NCBI GenBank assembly: GCA_017885385.1
Contig: JAFNGF010000103.1
Location: 1-33,298 of the forward strand
From: Planctomycetota bacterium
GTDB lineage: Bacteria > Planctomycetota > Phycisphaerae > Sedimentisphaerales > Anaerobacaceae
DNA length: 33,298 nt
Direction: 5' to 3'
How positions within the stretch are numbered: position 1 is the stretch's first letter; the number at the start of each line of letters is the position of its first letter. The translations under genes were made by a program, and so were the position numbers. The notes beneath the pieces were generated by a model. The model saw only the letters and a program-made list of their open reading frames with translations. It had not been told where the DNA came from and did not search any database. Of this stretch, positions 2,014 through 28,593 are shown piece by piece.

Positions 2014-5000
2014 TCACCATCGGGTGTGCCAGAGCCAGTTCTCTGCCAACACCGCAAGGTCAAACCAGTCTATGATGCCGCTTTCATCCAGGTCGGCTGC
2101 CTGAGCAGCGTATGGTGAGACACTCGTTCGCTCAGCCAAAGTGTACCTGGCAAATTGAGCTGCATCCTCCGATTTGCCGGTCATCAAGTTTTCTGAAAGC
2201 ATGCCGAAGCCGTCACTCTCCCATCGACTACTGACCAACACATCAAATCCGACCACGTGACCCGGCTTTAGTTCGGTTACGATCGTAGTGCCACCGCTGA
2301 AACCTGCGTAATTATCAAACATCAACACGCCGGCCTCGTGTATTATCTGGTCGCCATTTACGGCGACGGCGTATTCCAAACCAACATCAGTTCCTAACGC
2401 CTCGCCGTAAGCCCAAGTCGCCCACGAACCGCCCGAAGTATTTGGGGCCATCATATACTGCTGCGCCACATCGTAAACTCGCAGCCAGGTGGTGCCGCCT
2501 TCAGCATCGCCCTGGCTGTAAATCTCAATCCGGTCACTCACATCCCATTTTATGTACTCATCGCTAAACACGTGGTTGCTATCGTTCACCATCACGGCAA
2601 CATAAATCTTGTCCGTATCCGGACTCCAGCGAAGAGCATACTTAGCGTCTCTCACATCAGCAGGATTGCCGTAATAAATCTTATCCAATGGTATCCAGTT
2701 TACACCCTCCGACCATTCACTAATGTCACCATCGACAATGGCGCTACCCATCGGTATCTCCATCGTGGGCAGCTCCCAGTACCCGGCAAGTATGGCGAAA
2801 TCAGTTAGATCAACATCTCCGTCGCCATCAATGTCCGCCGCGTTCGGCATAGGATAGTGATAGCCCATATCTACGATGCCGGTGTCGGCCACATTGTCGG
2901 TTCGCGTTGTGAATTCATCCATGCCCAGATTTACTGTTAAATCACTTCCTGCATCAACGCACGGACTATCCGCCGCCTGCCCTGCGGTAACTTGGCTTAA
3001 ATGATAATCGCCGTTAATCCACACCGCATTGGGGTCATCCGGCTCAACGACAGTATTCGGCTCATTCACATCGGTCCAACAACCTGGTCTTACAAACAGA
3101 GGGTCGGTCTGGCTGTTTCCAATACCCCAAATTAGGTTTGATCCCTGCTCAACATATACAGCCGAAGAGCCGCCTTGTATAGAACTGTAGATAACTTGCA
3201 GAGATGAAGGAAAGCAGTTTCCTTCAGAGTTGCAGTAAGTCTCCAAGGCGATTTCGCTACCGTGTGGAGCGCTATTTCCCCACACGATGCTATTGATAAG
3301 TACTGGATAGCCCGGGTCTAAGTCGTCACGCGTACAAAACATACCGCCACCTTTTTGAGCAGCTACATTGCCGGTTATCGTACATTGAGATATAACCGGC
3401 CAGGCGTGCCTCTCAAGGTACAAACCCCCACCAGAACTCAGGCCAAGACTTGCGTTACCTGTGATCAGGCAGTTGCGCAACGTGAAGACGCCATATCCGG
3501 ACAGTTCAATCCCTGCGCACCCATATCTGTTCGTGGTATTTCCGGTAACTTTACAATCGGCTATGGCGACTTTACCATTTGAATGGCAGGTAATGCCTCC
3601 ATAATTGTCACTTTGGTTTGCTGTTACTACGCATCGGGTAATAGTATAATTCTCGCCACTAAAGCGTATGCCGGGACCAATGTTATTCTCGACGAAACAG
3701 TCTGAGATAACACTGTTGGTGGCATTATCCTCAATACCACCACCCTGATTCCTGCAAATAGTACAGCCCGCCACAGTGAGTTTGCCGCCGCCGGCATCTA
3801 TAGCGCACCCGGGGGAAGTCGGATCACCGTTACTATTACCGAAAAACTGGCAGTCCCTTATTTCAAGAGTGTATCCCCAGCAGTCCAGTGCTGTTCCCCA
3901 ATTTGCATGGTTATCATCAAATGTACAATTGTTGATAGTATGTGCACCGCCTCTGATACATAAGGCACCACCATAACTGTCCCATCCACCCTGAAGGCCA
4001 GCCATATTGCCGCTAAACACAGAGTTGCTCACAGCCATGTTTCCCCCGTCGATGTACATACCTCCGCCGAAAGCGGTTACAAATCCTGTCTCGGACCAGG
4101 CGTCCGCTTTATTGTTATGAAACTGCGAATCGACCACAGTACCTGAAGAACAGTAGATGCCACCCCCGAATGACCAACTCCCTATAGAACCTCGGCCACC
4201 TCTGCCAGCGGTATTACTGCTGACTAAGCAGTTGCGCACTTTTAGCAGCGAAGACTTGTCGCAGAAAATGCCCGCACCCATGCCTCCTGCGCCGACGCTT
4301 GCTGTGCCACCAGCATATCCTCCCTGACCTGTGGTATTTCCGGCAACGACGGAGTCCTCTATCTCAAGCACGGAGTTATTCCTGCATGCAATCCCGCCGC
4401 CGTACCCACCGTCACCGCCATATGTGTACCAGGAAGATGAGGGGCTGTAACTATAGCACTCGGGGCTTCCTGCACCACCATTGCCTGTTGTGCTCGACCT
4501 TATCAGGCTTGATATAACTCTCACTGAGCTACGCGATAGATAGAGACCGCCGCCGTCACCACCGCACTGTCCGCGAACTGATGGGCACGAACCTGGCAGA
4601 CCGTCAAGTGTTGCATTCTCCTCGATGCAACATTTGTAAAGGGTGATTTCACTGCCTTCACAGTAAATTCCGGCGCCACTGTCAGCCAAGCCGTGGGTGA
4701 TCGTCAGCCCGGAGATCGTCGCTCCAGAGCATCCTTTCAGATAAAACCCTCGACCTTTACTTTCACAATCAATCACCGTTGCTGCCACAATATTTGGATC
4801 ATTTGGGTCGACGCTTCGGATGGTGATGGCTTTACCTTTGAGGTCTATGTCTCGATTGCCGGGCCCGGTGTAGATACCAGGAGCGATGATAATCATATCG
4901 CCATCAACAGCCTCATTTATCGCCTGCTGGATGGTCCCACACTCCAATGGCACCATCAGAGCAGCCTCATCGTACTCAACAAGGAGAGACACAGTTATCC

Positions 5001-6909
5001 TCTGCAGGCCGGTTTGGGCGCTGCGATCAACGACTTGAATTTGACAAGTATATAGACCCTTGGAAAGGACTGCCGGACTCACTATGAGAACCACCTCCTG
5101 GTGCTCTGCCGCACGCAAACTCCCCTCAGCAGGGATTACCCTCAACCAACCGCAGCTATGTTGGATGTGCCAATTAAGAACACCACCACCGGTATTGCTA
5201 ATGATGAAAGTCTGTTGGGCAGGCATCGCAGTACCGCCGGTACCCCGGAATCCGAACCCATACGAAGATAGCTCTATTACGGGCCCCCCGAGGTCCAGGT
5301 CAATACCGACGACCTGCGAGCTATTCTCTGAGTTTGGATCACTGATTGTCAATTTGCACTCATACCTGCCCCAGATCAGGCCTGTTGTGTCTACCTCAAG
5401 TGTGACCTGCTGGCTCTGACCCGCAAAACAGACGCCTGTGTCAGGAACCGGCCGTAGCCACGTTTGGTTACAAGACGCCTGCCAATACAGTGTTCCGCCT
5501 CCTGCATTTTTGATGGTCACCACCTGGTCAGGTGGATTCGCTCCACCCTCAAAAGCAGTAAAGCTTAATCTGTTCGGAGAAAGACTGACGATCGGCCCTA
5601 TGACATCCAAATTAACCTCGATTTGCCGAGGGCTGTTGATCGCACACGGGTCAGCAACCACAATGTGGTAGTTGTACTCTCCCCATCGCATGCCTGTCAC
5701 ATCAACGCCTAAAGCAACATCGTTCACTTCGGTTCCAGCTCTCCCGCTGGTTGGCTCAATGCTCAGCCAAGGGCAGTCTTCAATGATCTCCCATTCGAGG
5801 ATTCCCCCGCCACCATTGTATAAGTGCAGGACTTGAGGCATCGGGTCTGGCCCACCTTCATGTGCGACGAAGTCAAACCTCCTCTCAGACAAAGCAATGA
5901 AGGGGGGCACCATAGGATCAAACTCGTCAACACCCATGTCTATCCGCCCATTTATGACCCTCGGACCGCCGTCGAGATCCGTATCCTCTGGTTTAGGTAC
6001 ATATTTCGGATCCCCTGCATCGATGCAAGGTGAAGCTACCGACAAATGAAAATCGCCAGCTACAGGATCGGCGAACAGAGGATCAGCATCAATGTTGCCC
6101 TCACCCCAAACCAGCGTGTTCGAGTAGGTCAAGACGTTGGCCTGGCCGCCTTTTACGTCACAATATGAGACAGTAAGAGTGGCATACTCCACCGTAATAT
6201 CGTGGTATTTGTTTGTCCACAGTATACAATTTGTAACCCTCGTATGATATTGGGTAGGATCCTCTCTGGGCTCGCCAGAGAAGACTTCAATGCTGGCCTG
6301 GCGATTGCCCCAGAAAACACAATTCCTTATCATGGCACTGGCTCTGTCTGTAGATATAGCCGCTGGGTCGTTGTTGACGAATAAGCAATTCGTGATCAGC
6401 GAGGTACAGCCATATCCGCAGTAGATGGCACCTCCTTCAGCCGCCTTATTGTCTATGAACAAACAATGTGTAACCGTAGGGCTGCTCTCATTGTGGCAGT
6501 AGACCGCACCTCCGTAGCTGCCCCCACCGTTACTAAGTAGCATGCAGCTATTCATGATCGTCAAACCAGCCAAGACCGAATCAGGACCCTCACCACGTTC
6601 GAATTCGAAAGCGCGGTGGCGGTCTATCCCATTTGCTTGGCAGTCGATTATCGTCGCTGCCACCACACCCCAATCATGGGGATGGAAACTTTGAACAGTG
6701 ATGGCCTTGCCTTTGAAATCAATGTCGCGGTTGCCGTCGCCGGTGTATTTACCCGGTGCAATGATAACCTTGTCGCCATCAACGGCTGCATCTATTGCCG
6801 CCTGGATCGTGGGATATTCGCTCGGCACCAGCCGATCTATAGCTGAAGAAATTGAACCAAAGACCAAAACCGCCGCTGCGAAAGACAAGCTCATCAGTCG
6901 CCTCCGCAT
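2014..6909 (-). CDS. Large secreted right-handed beta-helix protein with BACON-like repeats, CBM9-like domain and two dockerin-type repeats
   Basis: Signal peptide MRRRLMSLSFAAAVLVFGSISSA; start moved to ATG 6909 (GGAGG upstream) from ORF start 7029; IQAAIDAAVDGDKVIIAPGKY; three GG.L.W.I....WL...P..G blocks; AIVDGDISEWSEGVNW...YVAVMVNDS (CBM9/DOMON-like); DIDGDGDVDLTDFAILAGYW and DLDESGIIDWFDLAVLAENWL dockerin-like. Confidence 0.85.
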   Translation of the reverse strand: MRRRLMSLSFAAAVLVFGSISSAIDRLVPSEYPTIQAAIDAAVDGDKVIIAPGKYTGDGNRDIDFKGKAITVQSFHPHDWGVVAATIIDCQANGIDRHRAFEFERGEGPDSVLAGLTIMNSCMLLSNGGGSYGGAVYCHNESSPTVTHCLFIDNKAAEGGAIYCGYGCTSLITNCLFVNNDPAAISTDRASAMIRNCVFWGNRQASIEVFSGEPREDPTQYHTRVTNCILWTNKYHDITVEYATLTVSYCDVKGGQANVLTYSNTLVWGEGNIDADPLFADPVAGDFHLSVASPCIDAGDPKYVPKPEDTDLDGGPRVINGRIDMGVDEFDPMVPPFIALSERRFDFVAHEGGPDPMPQVLHLYNGGGGILEWEIIEDCPWLSIEPTSGRAGTEVNDVALGVDVTGMRWGEYNYHIVVADPCAINSPRQIEVNLDVIGPIVSLSPNRLSFTAFEGGANPPDQVVTIKNAGGGTLYWQASCNQTWLRPVPDTGVCFAGQSQQVTLEVDTTGLIWGRYECKLTISDPNSENSSQVVGIDLDLGGPVIELSSYGFGFRGTGGTAMPAQQTFIISNTGGGVLNWHIQHSCGWLRVIPAEGSLRAAEHQEVVLIVSPAVLSKGLYTCQIQVVDRSAQTGLQRITVSLLVEYDEAALMVPLECGTIQQAINEAVDGDMIIIAPGIYTGPGNRDIDLKGKAITIRSVDPNDPNIVAATVIDCESKGRGFYLKGCSGATISGLTITHGLADSGAGIYCEGSEITLYKCCIEENATLDGLPGSCPSVRGQCGGDGGGLYLSRSSVRVISSLIRSSTTGNGGAGSPECYSYSPSSSWYTYGGDGGYGGGIACRNNSVLEIEDSVVAGNTTGQGGYAGGTASVGAGGMGAGIFCDKSSLLKVRNCLVSSNTAGRGGRGSIGSWSFGGGIYCSSGTVVDSQFHNNKADAWSETGFVTAFGGGMYIDGGNMAVSNSVFSGNMAGLQGGWDSYGGALCIRGGAHTINNCTFDDNHANWGTALDCWGYTLEIRDCQFFGNSNGDPTSPGCAIDAGGGKLTVAGCTICRNQGGGIEDNATNSVISDCFVENNIGPGIRFSGENYTITRCVVTANQSDNYGGITCHSNGKVAIADCKVTGNTTNRYGCAGIELSGYGVFTLRNCLITGNASLGLSSGGGLYLERHAWPVISQCTITGNVAAQKGGGMFCTRDDLDPGYPVLINSIVWGNSAPHGSEIALETYCNSEGNCFPSSLQVIYSSIQGGSSAVYVEQGSNLIWGIGNSQTDPLFVRPGCWTDVNEPNTVVEPDDPNAVWINGDYHLSQVTAGQAADSPCVDAGSDLTVNLGMDEFTTRTDNVADTGIVDMGYHYPMPNAADIDGDGDVDLTDFAILAGYWELPTMEIPMGSAIVDGDISEWSEGVNWIPLDKIYYGNPADVRDAKYALRWSPDTDKIYVAVMVNDSNHVFSDEYIKWDVSDRIEIYSQGDAEGGTTWLRVYDVAQQYMMAPNTSGGSWATWAYGEALGTDVGLEYAVAVNGDQIIHEAGVLMFDNYAGFSGGTTIVTELKPGHVVGFDVLVSSRWESDGFGMLSENLMTGKSEDAAQFARYTLAERTSVSPYAAQAADLDESGIIDWFDLAVLAENWLWHTRW

Positions 6910-7107
6910 TTGCGTTCCTCCATTCAATTGAGGGCCACCAAGTGCCAAAGTCCCGCAATTAGTTATGATATAAGTATACCGCAAACCCGACAGAAAATCA
7001 AGAATGGCATTCTCTTTTTGAAGGCACACCTATCCCCTCTGAGGTCAAATTGGGCACTGAGGTTCCTCGGCTGAACGTCTCTGTGCGGCGGAATTTTGGT
7101 TACTCAG

Positions 7108-10911: not shown

Positions 10912-13089
10912 TTAACGCCTGGCTGGACCTCGCTGCTGCATATTCATCTCATCCAGCATCATCATATACTCCTCATCCTGCATACCTTCATATTCTTCCG
11001 GCATCGTTGTGCGCTTTTTGGCTGCGCTGAGCCGGCTATCCCAATCTCTAAAAGGCTGGGGCGGCTCCCGTTGAGCTCTTTGGATGTCATAAAACGCCAC
11101 CAGTATTTGCTCAGGCCAATTTCTCGCCTTAACCGGCATGTGTTCTATGTCCATACCATCATAGGTGTAGAGCATATCATGATAAAGCCTGGGATGTAAT
11201 TGTCCCGGACCGGCCCAATCATTCACAGCTACCGCATCCACTAACACCGCTCCGGTGCCGTAGTCTATTGTCTCAGGCACCACGGGCTTGTCTTTCATAA
11301 GCATCGGAGCACTCATAGCAAAAGCAACTCGGCGGTCTTTGGCGCGTTCCTCCGGCTTTGGAGCCTCGGTTTCTACGACCTTGCCGATAACTTCTCCCGG
11401 CTTTACCCTAAACTCCTGACTGTGCCAGTACCCTAAAACGTATTTGGAGACCTGCACAGTGACAGTCTTAGCCGCTTCTTGTATCTCGTTGGCAAAGAAG
11501 TACAATCTTGCCGGAATATGCACGGCTTGAGTTACGTCAGAAAAATTGCTCCATAGAACAACCTGGTTCTTTTCCGAATTGCCTTGTTTGTTTGTGTTTG
11601 ACGGATTCGCACCGGCTATCGGATTAAAAACCCCCAATCGAATTCTGTACCGGTAGATCTTTTTCGGCTCGACCGTATCATCGTGCCCCCAGAATACCAA
11701 AGGCTCACGCATCTTAGAAAGGTCTGTCCTTCGCGTAATCAGAATATCTTGATAGTCATAATAGACGTCACCTGTCGAAGGTCCGGTTGGAACCGCTCGA
11801 GGATTTAGCAAATAGTCTGCATCGATGTCACTCTGAGCTGGAGTCCTGGACCTCGTCCGGCGGTCTTTGTTGTCATAGACCCCGGTCTGCCCGTAAAGTC
11901 CGGTATCATCGTAAGCTCCCTGGCCTGTTCCGCGATCAACGCGGGTTCTTGTGCGTCTCTCTCTGGTGCCGCGCAGGCCCTCTTGACTCTGGGACCCGGG
12001 GTATGTTGCACCGGGCCCGGTTATCGTGCCCGGCCTGGTTGTGGTGCCCGACCTGGTTGTGGTGCCCGGCCTGGTTGCGGCGCCCGGCTGCGTTGCGAAT
12101 ATGCCGCCGCGCCGATCTTCGGGCCTTTGTCCAAGCTGACGCTCCTCCTCCTGCTTTTTCTCCTCCAGAGCCTTGCGTTTATCCTCCAGCTTTTCTTTCT
12201 TCTGCAAGTCCTCAAACTTTCTGTGCAGTAAAGGAGGGAACCACTCCACATTTGCCGATGCAATCTGATAAGCCATCGGCTGCAGCAAATCCATTCTCAC
12301 TTCAGGATTATCAAATTGAAGCAGTTGCACTTTTATTCCGCCGGGCGGCAGATTCTCTGTGTCCTGCATAACCTCAAACATCTGCTTTCGACTGTCAATT
12401 CTGGCACGAGGAACAGTTTGCCAATCACCCCAGCTACCGTCCTGGAGCAGCTCCTGTCTCTGCAACTGCACGGCGGCAAAGACAGGACTTGCCAGGCATG
12501 GGTCGCGCCACTCGATTGGAACATCCGCGGCTGCAAAACACTTGCGAAACTCATCATATAACGCCGCTACACCAAATTTTCCTTCGACCGTGACCAGATC
12601 GATATCGTTCGGCTCGCTTTTACCCTTATCATAGACATTCTGCTGAGTAACCGGTACGACAGGTACGTAAGCCGCCGCTCGGATATGCCCTACTGCCACG
12701 TCGGTGACACTGCCGATTTCAGGGACCCTGTACGGCGCTCTGCCCGCTACTGCCGTGGAGCTATTGTAGGGCAGAGGCAGAAACAGATTCGTATTGACAT
12801 CTTTTATCGAACAGTCCATCATCGCCAGGAAGCGGTCAACCTGAGGCTCATAAGCCGGCCCTGCTGTGGCCGACTGCTTCAGGTTGAACTCTACTTTCTG
12901 GGCTTGCGTCCTAATGTAAGGGTCGATTTCGCCAGGACTGAATTCCCTCTTTTCGTAAGGGACCATATTGGGGCTAAAGACGACCCGCGTCATCAACAGC
13001 CAGATACACACCAGCCCCACCACGCCCAGAACCACCTTTTCAATATGCTCTTCGAGAAGATTGCTGAGTTTTTTACCTATCAGATTCAT
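10912..13089 (-). CDS. Single-TM protein of PilM-linked cluster (PilP-like by position)
   Basis: N-terminal TM EKVVLGVVGLVCIWLLMTRVVF, long periplasmic-type region with low-complexity R/G/T linker; third gene downstream of PilM-like ORF. Confidence 0.55.
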   Translation of the reverse strand: MNLIGKKLSNLLEEHIEKVVLGVVGLVCIWLLMTRVVFSPNMVPYEKREFSPGEIDPYIRTQAQKVEFNLKQSATAGPAYEPQVDRFLAMMDCSIKDVNTNLFLPLPYNSSTAVAGRAPYRVPEIGSVTDVAVGHIRAAAYVPVVPVTQQNVYDKGKSEPNDIDLVTVEGKFGVAALYDEFRKCFAAADVPIEWRDPCLASPVFAAVQLQRQELLQDGSWGDWQTVPRARIDSRKQMFEVMQDTENLPPGGIKVQLLQFDNPEVRMDLLQPMAYQIASANVEWFPPLLHRKFEDLQKKEKLEDKRKALEEKKQEEERQLGQRPEDRRGGIFATQPGAATRPGTTTRSGTTTRPGTITGPGATYPGSQSQEGLRGTRERRTRTRVDRGTGQGAYDDTGLYGQTGVYDNKDRRTRSRTPAQSDIDADYLLNPRAVPTGPSTGDVYYDYQDILITRRTDLSKMREPLVFWGHDDTVEPKKIYRYRIRLGVFNPIAGANPSNTNKQGNSEKNQVVLWSNFSDVTQAVHIPARLYFFANEIQEAAKTVTVQVSKYVLGYWHSQEFRVKPGEVIGKVVETEAPKPEERAKDRRVAFAMSAPMLMKDKPVVPETIDYGTGAVLVDAVAVNDWAGPGQLHPRLYHDMLYTYDGMDIEHMPVKARNWPEQILVAFYDIQRAQREPPQPFRDWDSRLSAAKKRTTMPEEYEGMQDEEYMMMLDEMNMQQRGPARR
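12008..12097. repeat. 18-bp tandem repeat, 5 units, encoding TRPGTT-type hexapeptides
   Basis: Units gtgcccggcctggttgtg / gtgcccgacctggttgtg / gtgcccggcctggttgcg plus two diverged outer units. Confidence 0.85.
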
Positions 13090-24918: not shown

Positions 24919-24978
24919 GACCCCACGTAAAACGCGGGGCTAAACACTATTTAGCCTGCGGTTTCACCGCAGGTTTCA
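24919..24978. repeat. Two adjacent hairpin-GGCTAAA repeats in opposite orientation between convergent genes
   Basis: ACCCCACGTAAAACGCGGGGCTAAAC on + and GAAACCTGCGGTGAAACCGCAGGCTAAA on -. Confidence 0.75.
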
Positions 24979-25791
24979 TCCCTGGTCACAGAGTTTTAAT
25001 TTCGCCAGTATCTCCTGGGCGTCCGCCGATTCTATCTGATAAATTTTGCCTCCTTGTTGTCTGAATTGCCGGCCAAAGTCGCTACACATTTGTCTATATT
25101 TTTCGTAAATATTCTTTTTGTAGCCCGAGTCCTGAGTAACGACCTGTACCTCTGCGGGGTTCCAGTACTTTATCAATAGGTTCTTATTCTTGAGCAGAAA
25201 GTCGGCGCTTACCATCCTGTCGCCTATTCTCAGAACTCTGTTCATTTGAAAATCTGCATTCTTGCCGGCCAGATATTGGCGAATTACCTCTCCGCCGTCG
25301 ATGTCTGTGGTCGCAGCTGCTTCTTGCCGGTCGGTCCTGGATGCCTTTAACCTCTCATTACGAGCCTTTAAATTCTCCTCGTATTTCTGCCTCATCCGGT
25401 AGTACAACAAGTCGGCAGACTCGTCACTGCTGACATACCCGGAGCGGCGAGTGTCACAGTCACCCGCACCAGACTGCCTGTAGCCCAAGGCATAATCCGA
25501 GTAGGAGGACCCGGACCAATAGTCACTAACCAAACCAGAAGGGTATTTGTAGCTGAAAGCATAAGGCGAGTACTGAACCCAGTAGGGAATCAAGCCCGAA
25601 CGGCCGTAGCCAAAAGCATACGGAGAGTAACGAAGCTCGCCGGAAATCAGGCCTGATGGATATTTGTAGCTGAAAGCATAAGGCGAGTAGCGAGTACGAT
25701 AACGCAGCGGAATGCGACCGGAGTAATAAGCGTTAGCTACGCTGGGCAGCAGCGTCAAAACTATTATTGTCAGCGTTGAAATCCTTTTCAT
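24976..25791 (-). CDS. Secreted protein with YSPYAF aromatic tandem repeats
   Basis: Signal peptide MKRISTLTIIVLTLLPSVANA; repeats YSPYAFSYKYPSGLIS / YSPYAFGYGRSGLIP / YSPYAFSYKYPSGLVS / YSDYALGYRQSG; RBS AAGGAG at proper spacing. Confidence 0.75.
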   Translation of the reverse strand: MKRISTLTIIVLTLLPSVANAYYSGRIPLRYRTRYSPYAFSYKYPSGLISGELRYSPYAFGYGRSGLIPYWVQYSPYAFSYKYPSGLVSDYWSGSSYSDYALGYRQSGAGDCDTRRSGYVSSDESADLLYYRMRQKYEENLKARNERLKASRTDRQEAAATTDIDGGEVIRQYLAGKNADFQMNRVLRIGDRMVSADFLLKNKNLLIKYWNPAEVQVVTQDSGYKKNIYEKYRQMCSDFGRQFRQQGGKIYQIESADAQEILAKLKLCDQG

Positions 25792-25834
25792 TTTAGTTCT
25801 CCTTCCGTGTCAAGGACGCCGTTTTTCCAGGTTT

Positions 25835-25940
25835 TTCCTGCAATCACCTCCTCTGTAAAAACGTGGTGGTTTCCCCACAAACCGGACCTTCTTTCGAGCA
25901 TTCGCGCTCACTGAGTAATTTCTTCCTGCAATCACCTCCT
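25835..25940 (-). promoter_or_regulatory. Leader with two identical extended Shine-Dalgarno sequences
   Basis: 18-bp identical AGGAGGTGATTGCAGGAA (minus strand) at 25835-25852 and 25923-25940, upstream of the 24976-25791 gene. Confidence 0.6.
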
Positions 25941-26947
25941 TTCGTGAAAAAAACTTCGCGCGGCGTCAAGATAACCGGTAACACCTTTCCGGCTTCACCC
26001 TACCCCCTTGATCTGAGTCGAACATCATTATAAGCCTTTTTGCTCGTCTTGACGAGGAATATTATCGGTCTTTTTGAAATTTTCTTGCAAAATTGCCGTC
26101 CAGCCGGCAATGGCAATGTGGGATCTGCCCATCATATCTTAACTGGAAGGGCTAAATCACTACCCTTATGTGGCGTGAATTTGCGTTCTGGCAGAGCCAA
26201 TACATACAAGCACACCTACCAGCAAACTACTATCATTAAGCCTTCAGCTCAAGCTGCTCAAGAACGAGCCGGTCTGAGGACATCGTCAATACCCTTGTTT
26301 GCTGCAATGCCACGGGACTGCCTTTGCGATGAAGACACGCCCGTAAGAGTGCTCAGCAAGAAATAAATGCCAAAAACCTTAGAGATAATTCTGACCCCGA
26401 CGGGCTTCAATATCCTATAATCACTTCGTTCTTAGGCCGCCAAGGAGCATAACAGAAAAAATGCCGGCCACTTTCAAAAATTTCTCCGGCTCGCTCTTGA
26501 CTTTTGTGAACTATTAGGATAGACTTATTGCTGTAAATCGTTCCGGGGGGCGTAATCGGAATGGGGGGTGTTCTTAAGTTTTCCTCTGCTGGACACCCAC
26601 GCAAAATTGTGTGTCACTTGAGCGTACAGATTCAAGTGCGATCTGCCGTGTAAGTTTTGACGGATCAAAAATCGCGACAGGGTAAGGCTGTTGCTCTGAC
26701 GTAAACTGCTATGACTATGCCTGCATTTACCGGTATCTGACTACCCGGCGATCAAATGGGGGCGATTGCTGCAAAGCAATGTTTCAAGCAGAAAAGGCAG
26801 CAACCAAAGACAATGACTGTGATTCGTTGCGTGTGATTCGTCGGCTGTCACCCAAGCGGCGAGTCACGAAGAGAGCTAACAGAGCAATTGGGGCTGCTGT
26901 GAGTGGCCAGCAACCTAAAAAATTATTATCGCAAAAGAGGTGAAAAA

Positions 26948-27706
26948 ATGAAGATGATGAAAGTAGCAAAAAGTCTGTGTGCGGTGCTTGTCCTGACTTT
27001 GCCGTGTCTGGCCGCACAAGCCGTATCGCCCGGCACCGTGGACATAGTACATTCCGGTTACGGCGCTTATGACCAAGCCGGCGTCGCGGTTTGGGGCGCG
27101 GGCCAAGAGGGCACAGCCATGTACGGTGGGCTGTATATGCTGAATAAGACAGCCGGAACGGGCCAAGGCACTACTTGGCCGAACGGCCTGATCGGCGGCC
27201 TCTGCATTGAATTGCACGAGCCGGCACCTGCCAGCACGTTCACCTACGATGTAGCCATGCCCAAAGATGCGTACAACAGTTTTCTCGAGGGGTCAATAGG
27301 CGCCGGCAAGGCCAATTATCTTAGCGAATTATGGGGCAGATTCTTCAAGCCGGCCTGGGCCGGCAGCGGACCATTTTCTCCCCAGCAAAACAGCAACGCC
27401 GAAGCCTTTGCCACCGCTGTATGGGAAATCATATATGAAGACCTTCCCACGTCACCGGCAGGCTGGGACGTCACAGTTGACGGTACAGCTTGCACCCGTG
27501 GCTTCCGTTCCGAAGGCGCCAATACAACCCTGGCAAATAGCTGGCTGCACAGTCTGACAGGTTGCGGCCCGAAGGCAGACCTGCGAGCCTTTGTTTATGA
27601 TGGAAAGCAAGACTACATCGTACAGGTGCCCGAGCCGGCAACAATAGTCCTGCTTGGCTTCGGTGGGGTAGTGAGCCTGCTGAGCAGGAGAAAGAGAGCC
27701 TGGTAG
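26948..27706 (+). CDS. PEP-CTERM sorting domain-containing secreted protein
   Basis: MKMMKVAKSLCAVLVLTLPCLAAQA signal peptide; C-terminal VPEPATIVLLGFGGVVSLLSRRKRAW; RBS GAGGTG; ORF start 26903 trimmed. Confidence 0.88.
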   Translation: MKMMKVAKSLCAVLVLTLPCLAAQAVSPGTVDIVHSGYGAYDQAGVAVWGAGQEGTAMYGGLYMLNKTAGTGQGTTWPNGLIGGLCIELHEPAPASTFTYDVAMPKDAYNSFLEGSIGAGKANYLSELWGRFFKPAWAGSGPFSPQQNSNAEAFATAVWEIIYEDLPTSPAGWDVTVDGTACTRGFRSEGANTTLANSWLHSLTGCGPKADLRAFVYDGKQDYIVQVPEPATIVLLGFGGVVSLLSRRKRAW

Positions 27707-27996
27707 GCAAAAACGACGGCAAATACAGCCGGTACGCCCGACAGCTCAGCTATGGAATCTTTGTCAACCGGTAAGAAATTCTTGAAATCTAAAAGGTCTT
27801 TGTCAATTCACCCGTGGTCTGGCTAAGAACCAATGTCGGACAATCGCGCAAGAAAGGGGGATGCTTATGATGACAGAAGATCATCGGTGATTAAAAGGAA
27901 TGTTTGCGAGCTTACGGATTGAAAACGTGACCATAATTGCTGCGTAACTTTGCAGTATCAAGAAAAGCAAAATTTAATATTACGGGAGGAAAAGAG

Positions 27997-28593
27997 ATGA
28001 AAAAGTTAGCGGTTGTTCTTATGCTGGTGGGGGTGGTGACGCTTCTGGGCACCGCCGCACAGGCAGGTTTTGTAAATCCTACAGATAGTCCCGGCGCGGC
28101 GCCTTTCACGTGCGAGTTCCCAAGCCCGGTGAATCAGCACAACTGGACATTCGACTACTCCGGACCGTCGCTGACCATGAATGAAGCTATCCACTCAGCG
28201 TCTAAAGACCTGGTGCTCATGAGCGGCCAAACAGACTCAGACCCGACATTTACCGTGGTTAAGACCATCCAGAACACCAGTGGTATCGACTGGACGAGCT
28301 ATATAGTGAGTCTATCCGGCGGCGGCGGGGCGACGTTCGTCGGGGGCAGTGCTAGTGCCGGAGGCAACAAGCTGCAAACGGTGGACTATATACACCCCGC
28401 AGCGATCAAGTTTACCGGGGCGAAGGCGGTCAAAAACGGCGAATTGCTCACGCTTTCGTTTGACATCAATGTTCCTACCTCTGGTTTGTTTAACTTTACA
28501 TTGACACAAGAGCCGATTCCCGAGCCGGCTACAATGGCTCTACTTGGTTTGGGCAGCCTGGGACTATTCTGCCGGCGCAGAGCTCATTGCTGA
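27997..28593 (+). CDS. PEP-CTERM sorting domain-containing secreted protein
   Basis: MKKLAVVLMLVGVVTLLGTAAQA; C-terminal IPEPATMALLGLGSLGLFCRRRAHC; GGGAGG RBS; ORF start 27937 trimmed. Confidence 0.9.
   Translation: MKKLAVVLMLVGVVTLLGTAAQAGFVNPTDSPGAAPFTCEFPSPVNQHNWTFDYSGPSLTMNEAIHSASKDLVLMSGQTDSDPTFTVVKTIQNTSGIDWTSYIVSLSGGGGATFVGGSASAGGNKLQTVDYIHPAAIKFTGAKAVKNGELLTLSFDINVPTSGLFNFTLTQEPIPEPATMALLGLGSLGLFCRRRAHC

Follow-up and report, generated by a model that had tools for sequence, protein, structure and literature searches.

What sort of protein carries a tandem tyrosine-rich repeat behind a signal peptide, and what might it do for the planctomycete that makes it? The question is posed by one minus-strand gene in the window (the whole stretch of 33,298 nucleotides that was analysed), in which a first-pass annotation had seen a secreted protein with four repeat units, possibly of an undescribed family, followed by a separate C-terminal domain of about 100 aa. 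These claims were largely borne out: the four units lie exactly where they had been placed, on the minus strand at residues 35-108 (window 25468-25689), the C-terminal part does stand as a separate domain, to which a predicted fold can now be given, and secretion is supported, as a prediction, by the N-terminal sequence. The gene and its parts are laid out as follows (coordinates are those of the window).

24976..25791, minus strand: coding sequence of a 271-aa protein, with its stop codon (translation; 36 orthologues aligned)
25797..25804, minus strand: ordinary Shine-Dalgarno sequence of the gene, AAGGAGAA (read from the sequence)
25729..25791, minus strand: predicted Sec signal peptide MKRISTLTIIVLTLLPSVANA, residues 1-21 (read from the sequence)
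25630..25689, minus strand: repeat unit 1, YSPYAFSYKYPSGLISGELR, residues 35-54 (translation, unit count, codon comparison)
25573..25629, minus strand: repeat unit 2, YSPYAFGYGRSGLIPYWVQ, residues 55-73 (translation, unit count, codon comparison)
25504..25572, minus strand: repeat unit 3, YSPYAFSYKYPSGLV, with the spacer SDYWSGSS, residues 74-96 (translation, unit count, codon comparison)
25468..25503, minus strand: degenerate unit 4, YSDYALGYRQSG, residues 97-108 (translation)
25312..25467, minus strand: variable, basic linker with a predicted helix, residues 109-160 (36-orthologue alignment)
24979..25311, minus strand: C-terminal domain with a predicted Vsr/EDxHD-like fold lacking the catalytic acids, residues 161-271 (AlphaFold2, Foldseek, column counts)

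The reading frame is preceded by a good ribosome-binding site, AAGGAGAACTAAAATG, and opens with a stretch that looks like a signal peptide, MKRISTLTIIVLTLLPSVANA passing from an n-region with K/R through a hydrophobic core to an A-x-A end; the same apparent design (charged, then hydrophobic, mostly with a small-x-small end) is found at the N-terminus of the 36 members, and the order signal peptide, repeats, linker, C-terminal domain holds in 36/36.

How widespread is such a protein? The gene was present in 9/60 related genomes in a first protein search, and a profile run against each of the 89 genomes in the same GTDB family gave 36 members, one per genome (a member split into two matches being counted once), in 12 of the 45 genera; one carrier is a Phycisphaerae MAG from Lake Pavin. 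Paralogues within the same genome were sought and none was found. Further members were absent from 161 genomes of the order and from 391 other genomes drawn from the phylum, a search in which scoring was confined to the six best candidates of each genome, so that distant relatives could be missed. In the 89-genome table genome size tends to be larger in carriers than in non-carriers, a comparison confounded by kinship. Sequence searches of Pfam, NCBIfam, PHROGs and PDB gave no known-family match for the 271-aa protein, the sub-threshold matches (Allatostatin, 0.024; a de novo TIM barrel, 0.0068) looking like chance or like matches built from internal repeats, and the string 'YSPYAF' was not found in the literature searched, all in keeping with the supposition that the family was undescribed. 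Judged from sequence, the family is real, undescribed and lineage-specific, and its export is predicted.

The surroundings of the gene offer little help. It is flanked by a convergent ornithine carbamoyltransferase gene, with two PEP-CTERM genes and gyrA upstream (the adjacent PEP-CTERM proteins are encoded at 26903-27706 and 27937-28593 on the plus strand, upstream of gyrA). In the 29 loci compared, conservation of any neighbour stops at a few genera, and no operon partner is conserved across genera; the window and G027 both have gyrA and holA nearby. The gene looks monocistronic, and since there is no conserved partner gene the neighbourhood names no ligand. Elsewhere in the window, 2014-7029 (minus) encodes a 1671-aa secreted-type protein with right-handed beta-helix, BACON-like, dockerin-type and CBM9-like regions, and an 18-bp tandem repeat of about four copies (12014-12097), inside a 725-aa minus-strand ORF at 10912-13089, codes for a P-G-T-x-T-R-like repeat.

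Is the repeat itself more than a chance stretch of low complexity? Units 1-3 are full motifs of the form Y-[ST]-P-Y-A-F-x-Y-x(2,3)-S-G-L-[VI]; unit 4, YSDYALGYRQSG, has neither the P at position 3 nor L-[VI] after G, and occupies the site of the fourth unit of other members. Across the 36 orthologues there are 107 motif units, 2-5 per protein, which conform to Y-[ST]-P-Y-A-F-x-Y-x-x-S-G-L-[VI] with a period of 19 aa, the spacing being nearly always 19 residues and sometimes 20 or 14. Among 90 ungapped units G12 is invariant and Y1 (82), P3 (84), Y4 (82), A5 (82) and L13 (85) are each at least 90% conserved, F6 (67) and S11 (66) being more variable. In most close orthologue pairs the dN/dS of the repeat is 0.08-0.32, as low as that of the C-terminal domain (0.16-0.44), and the linker usually exceeds both; a single pair reached 1.3 for the repeat, with very few synonymous changes. 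Such low values argue that the repeat is functional protein sequence under protein-level selection, and together with the 107 units in 36 orthologues they rule out a low-complexity chance origin. Whether other proteins have the repeat, which the first-pass annotation had taken as its test, has a divided answer: 35 orthologues do, and no protein outside the family was found with it, a consensus three-unit query of 397 class genomes included.

The near-identity of units 1 and 3 had been read as a sign of recent duplication or conversion. They do share 39/45 nt, the first 29 nt being identical, but their last six codons all differ. Family-wide, units within one protein are more alike at the protein level than shuffles would allow (0/500 reach it), whereas codon identity is no higher between units of one gene (0.52) than between different units of different genes in the same genus (0.53). 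Conversion is therefore possible for units 1 and 3 and is not the general pattern, and concerted evolution by recent gene conversion can be set aside; the observed likeness stands and the conclusion drawn from it is weak.

To what, then, are the repeats attached? In the full-length AlphaFold model a helix of low confidence occupies residues 126-158 of the linker, and the last 110 residues are folded. The C-terminal domain modelled alone with AlphaFold2, from an alignment of two sequences (the query and one relative), has a pLDDT of 89.5 and a pTM of 0.82, with secondary structure in the order H-E-E-E-H-H-E-H and an alpha-beta-beta-beta-alpha-beta-alpha core. The best PDB match (Foldseek) is the EDxHD homing endonuclease I-Bth0305I (3r3p; probability 0.77, TM 0.49-0.54), and Vsr (1vsr), at rank 9, has the same predicted core in common. 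The top 25 matches among viral models (probability 0.98-1.00, TM 0.45-0.68) are, where functionally named, nearly all homing, Vsr or restriction endonucleases. TM-scores are moderate, rmsd in the top viral matches is 4.6-7.6 A, and the matches are not significant by E-value (best 1.2e-3 viral, 0.2 PDB); E-values of only about 1e-3 make this an assignment of fold, not a proof of descent. With that understanding the domain can be assigned, on its model, to the Vsr/EDxHD restriction-endonuclease-like fold, the alpha-beta-beta-beta-alpha-beta core of which is seen by predicted fold only. No nuclease family is among the Pfam and PHROGs matches listed, and about 400 class genomes gave no convincing occurrence of the repeat or the C-terminal domain in other proteins; the two best weak matches to the domain, a HEAT-like protein (E 0.0021) and a PAS/chemotaxis receptor (E 0.019), look on inspection like chance. 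The new family differs from I-Bth0305I and Vsr in being fused to repeats, in its predicted export, in lacking catalytic acids and in having no detectable sequence homology.

The fate of the active site can be followed by column. By eye, VSADFLLKNKNLLIKYWNP aligns with the D-F-x(7)-hydrophobic-E-x-D strand pair of DUF559 (e.g. IADFFCHEAKLVIEIDG in L089), so that the D-F-x(7)-hydrophobic-strand register resembles that of DUF559/MTES_1575 (PF04480, PF18741). Their strand, however, carries E-x-D where the new family has K-Y-W, and profile-profile comparison (hhalign) with three DUF559 sequences from related genomes was not significant, doing no better than reversed controls. Residue 206 is I/L/V/M, 208 is K/T/R/S and 210 is W/T/R/N in 36/36, so no member (0/36) has D or E at these candidate beta3 metal-binding positions. 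At the site of the first acid, on beta2, residue 197 is D in only 19/36. A canonical catalytic site (a beta2 acid with a beta3 acid and K or D/H) is absent from the 36 members under either register, and the lack of an acidic residue at the beta3 positions suggests that the domain probably acts by binding and not as a nuclease. There is a precedent: the RAP/FAST2 region of FASTKD4 is an inactive Vsr-like domain that binds without cutting, and mutation of its putative catalytic Asp was without effect, the protein acting by binding (PMC11879112). FASTKD4 is a mitochondrial RNA-binding protein with other domains, unlike the new family, and the likeness is one of fold.

We tentatively favour the view, at a little short of an even chance, that the protein is an exported binding protein in which a repeat contact module is joined to a pseudo-nuclease head. 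A single-copy, lineage-specific protein would be exported via the Sec pathway; its 2-5 tyrosine-rich units of 19 residues would probably form a multivalent contact surface holding it to the cell envelope or to partners; and the basic linker would carry the compact C-terminal domain of predicted Vsr/EDxHD fold. Having lost the acidic metal-binding residues, that domain would most likely bind a ligand, in place of cutting nucleic acid, at the old active-site strand, where K-Y-W-N is conserved.

Could the repeats instead be a self-assembling segment, amyloid-like or of the sticker-and-spacer kind, that builds an extracellular fibre or matrix with the C-terminal domain as cargo? The composition of the repeat region across the family (Tyr 16%, Ser 13%, Gly 11%, Arg 7%) would suit such a role, as would the strict period, the several copies and the signal peptide. 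We nevertheless think it unlikely, as most members have only 2-3 units, a small number for a protein that forms fibres, neither a second structural gene nor a chaperone or secretion channel is conserved adjacent to the gene, there is no match to curli or any other amyloid family in Pfam or NCBIfam, and the repeats are predicted to be without structure (pLDDT 22-25 in the full-length model). It seems quite unlikely, too, that the protein captures extracellular DNA or RNA at the envelope through its dead nuclease domain, aided by the basic linker and the repeats. The Vsr-like predicted fold, the charge of the linker (net 0 to +13) and of the repeats (mostly basic) in the 36 members, and the RNA binding of the catalytically dead FASTKD4 all lean that way; the C-terminal domain, on the other hand, is basic in some of the 36 members and not in others, with a pI of 4.5-9.4 and a net charge of -8 to +6, and so wide a variation speaks against a conserved nucleic-acid-binding face.

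Secreted proteins with choline- or glucan-binding repeats (of the Pfam CW_binding type) carry tandem units of about 20 aa that are rich in aromatic residues, and the units described here, with their length of 19-20 aa, aromatic pairs, invariant turn Gly and signal peptide, might be thought to be similar short aromatic beta-hairpins that bind surface glycans. We regard this as improbable: the motif is a different one, the 36 members have no Pfam match to a cell-wall or choline-binding repeat (E up to 1), and AlphaFold leaves the repeat unfolded. Least probable is an active secreted nuclease with non-standard residues, for which the fold resemblance, K208 (23/36) and D197 (19/36) might be adduced, given that neither possible beta3 position is acidic in any member and that residue 197 is N, A, V or T in the other 17/36. 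The expression of the gene may have an unusual feature of its own, involving the following sites.

25835..25852, minus strand: leader element copy 2, AGGAGGTGATTGCAGGAA, about 60 nt upstream of the ATG (sequence search)
25923..25940, minus strand: leader element copy 1, an identical AGGAGGTGATTGCAGGAA, about 149 nt upstream of the ATG (sequence search)
26027..26055, minus strand: candidate promoter-like site, TCGTCA-17-TATAAT (motif scan; three such sites found against 1.4 expected in shuffles)

The two 18-nt copies of AGGAGGTGATTGCAGGAA are the only exact ones in the genome. Many members have in their leaders, 40-60 nt upstream of the start codon and besides the normal Shine-Dalgarno sequence, AGGAGGTGA(T), which is complementary to the 16S rRNA 3' end. 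In 29 loci (858 kb, both strands counted) AGGAGGTGA occurs 11 times in leaders of the gene and nowhere else, and GAAAGGAGG 13 times in leaders and six times elsewhere. At least eight exact bases of the 16S-tail complement lie between -150 and -25 in 27/36 leaders, compared with 12% of shuffled ones, the related sequences not being independent. The 10-mer AGGAGGTGAT occurs 10 times genome-wide, and so is not a general regulon signal. Two other readings of the leader were rejected: a known riboswitch, for which Rfam gave no match, and a uORF, the starts of which vary between members and which, where an AUG is present, would have a spacing of 2-3 nt to it. We infer from the sequence that the element may be a ribosome standby or regulatory site. 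A T-run precedes both copies, which are separated by a terminator-like hairpin bearing a T-run (25862-25879, minus strand; two hairpins found, 1.5 expected in shuffles). Residues 1-5, MKRIS, are unusually well conserved for a signal peptide in the 36-member alignment, perhaps because of a constraint on translation initiation. That the whole forms one system, a lineage-restricted exported protein in which a pseudo-nuclease domain is displayed on a new tyrosine-repeat module, with translation governed from a conserved ribosome-binding element at which initiation does not occur (the perfect complement of the 16S tail, lying 40-60 nt ahead of the true start and acting as a standby or regulatory site), is a doubtful proposition.

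The family and its repeat are new to the family and structure libraries searched, and their wider importance is uncertain, being limited to one family of mostly uncultured Phycisphaerae. Within that family, they suggest that an exported domain with no catalytic role has been made out of a nuclease fold, which would be unusual, the known inactive Vsr-like example, FASTKD4, acting in organelles on RNA; and the gene-specific leader element would provide a testable example of an additional docking site for the ribosome, one that many genera have kept.
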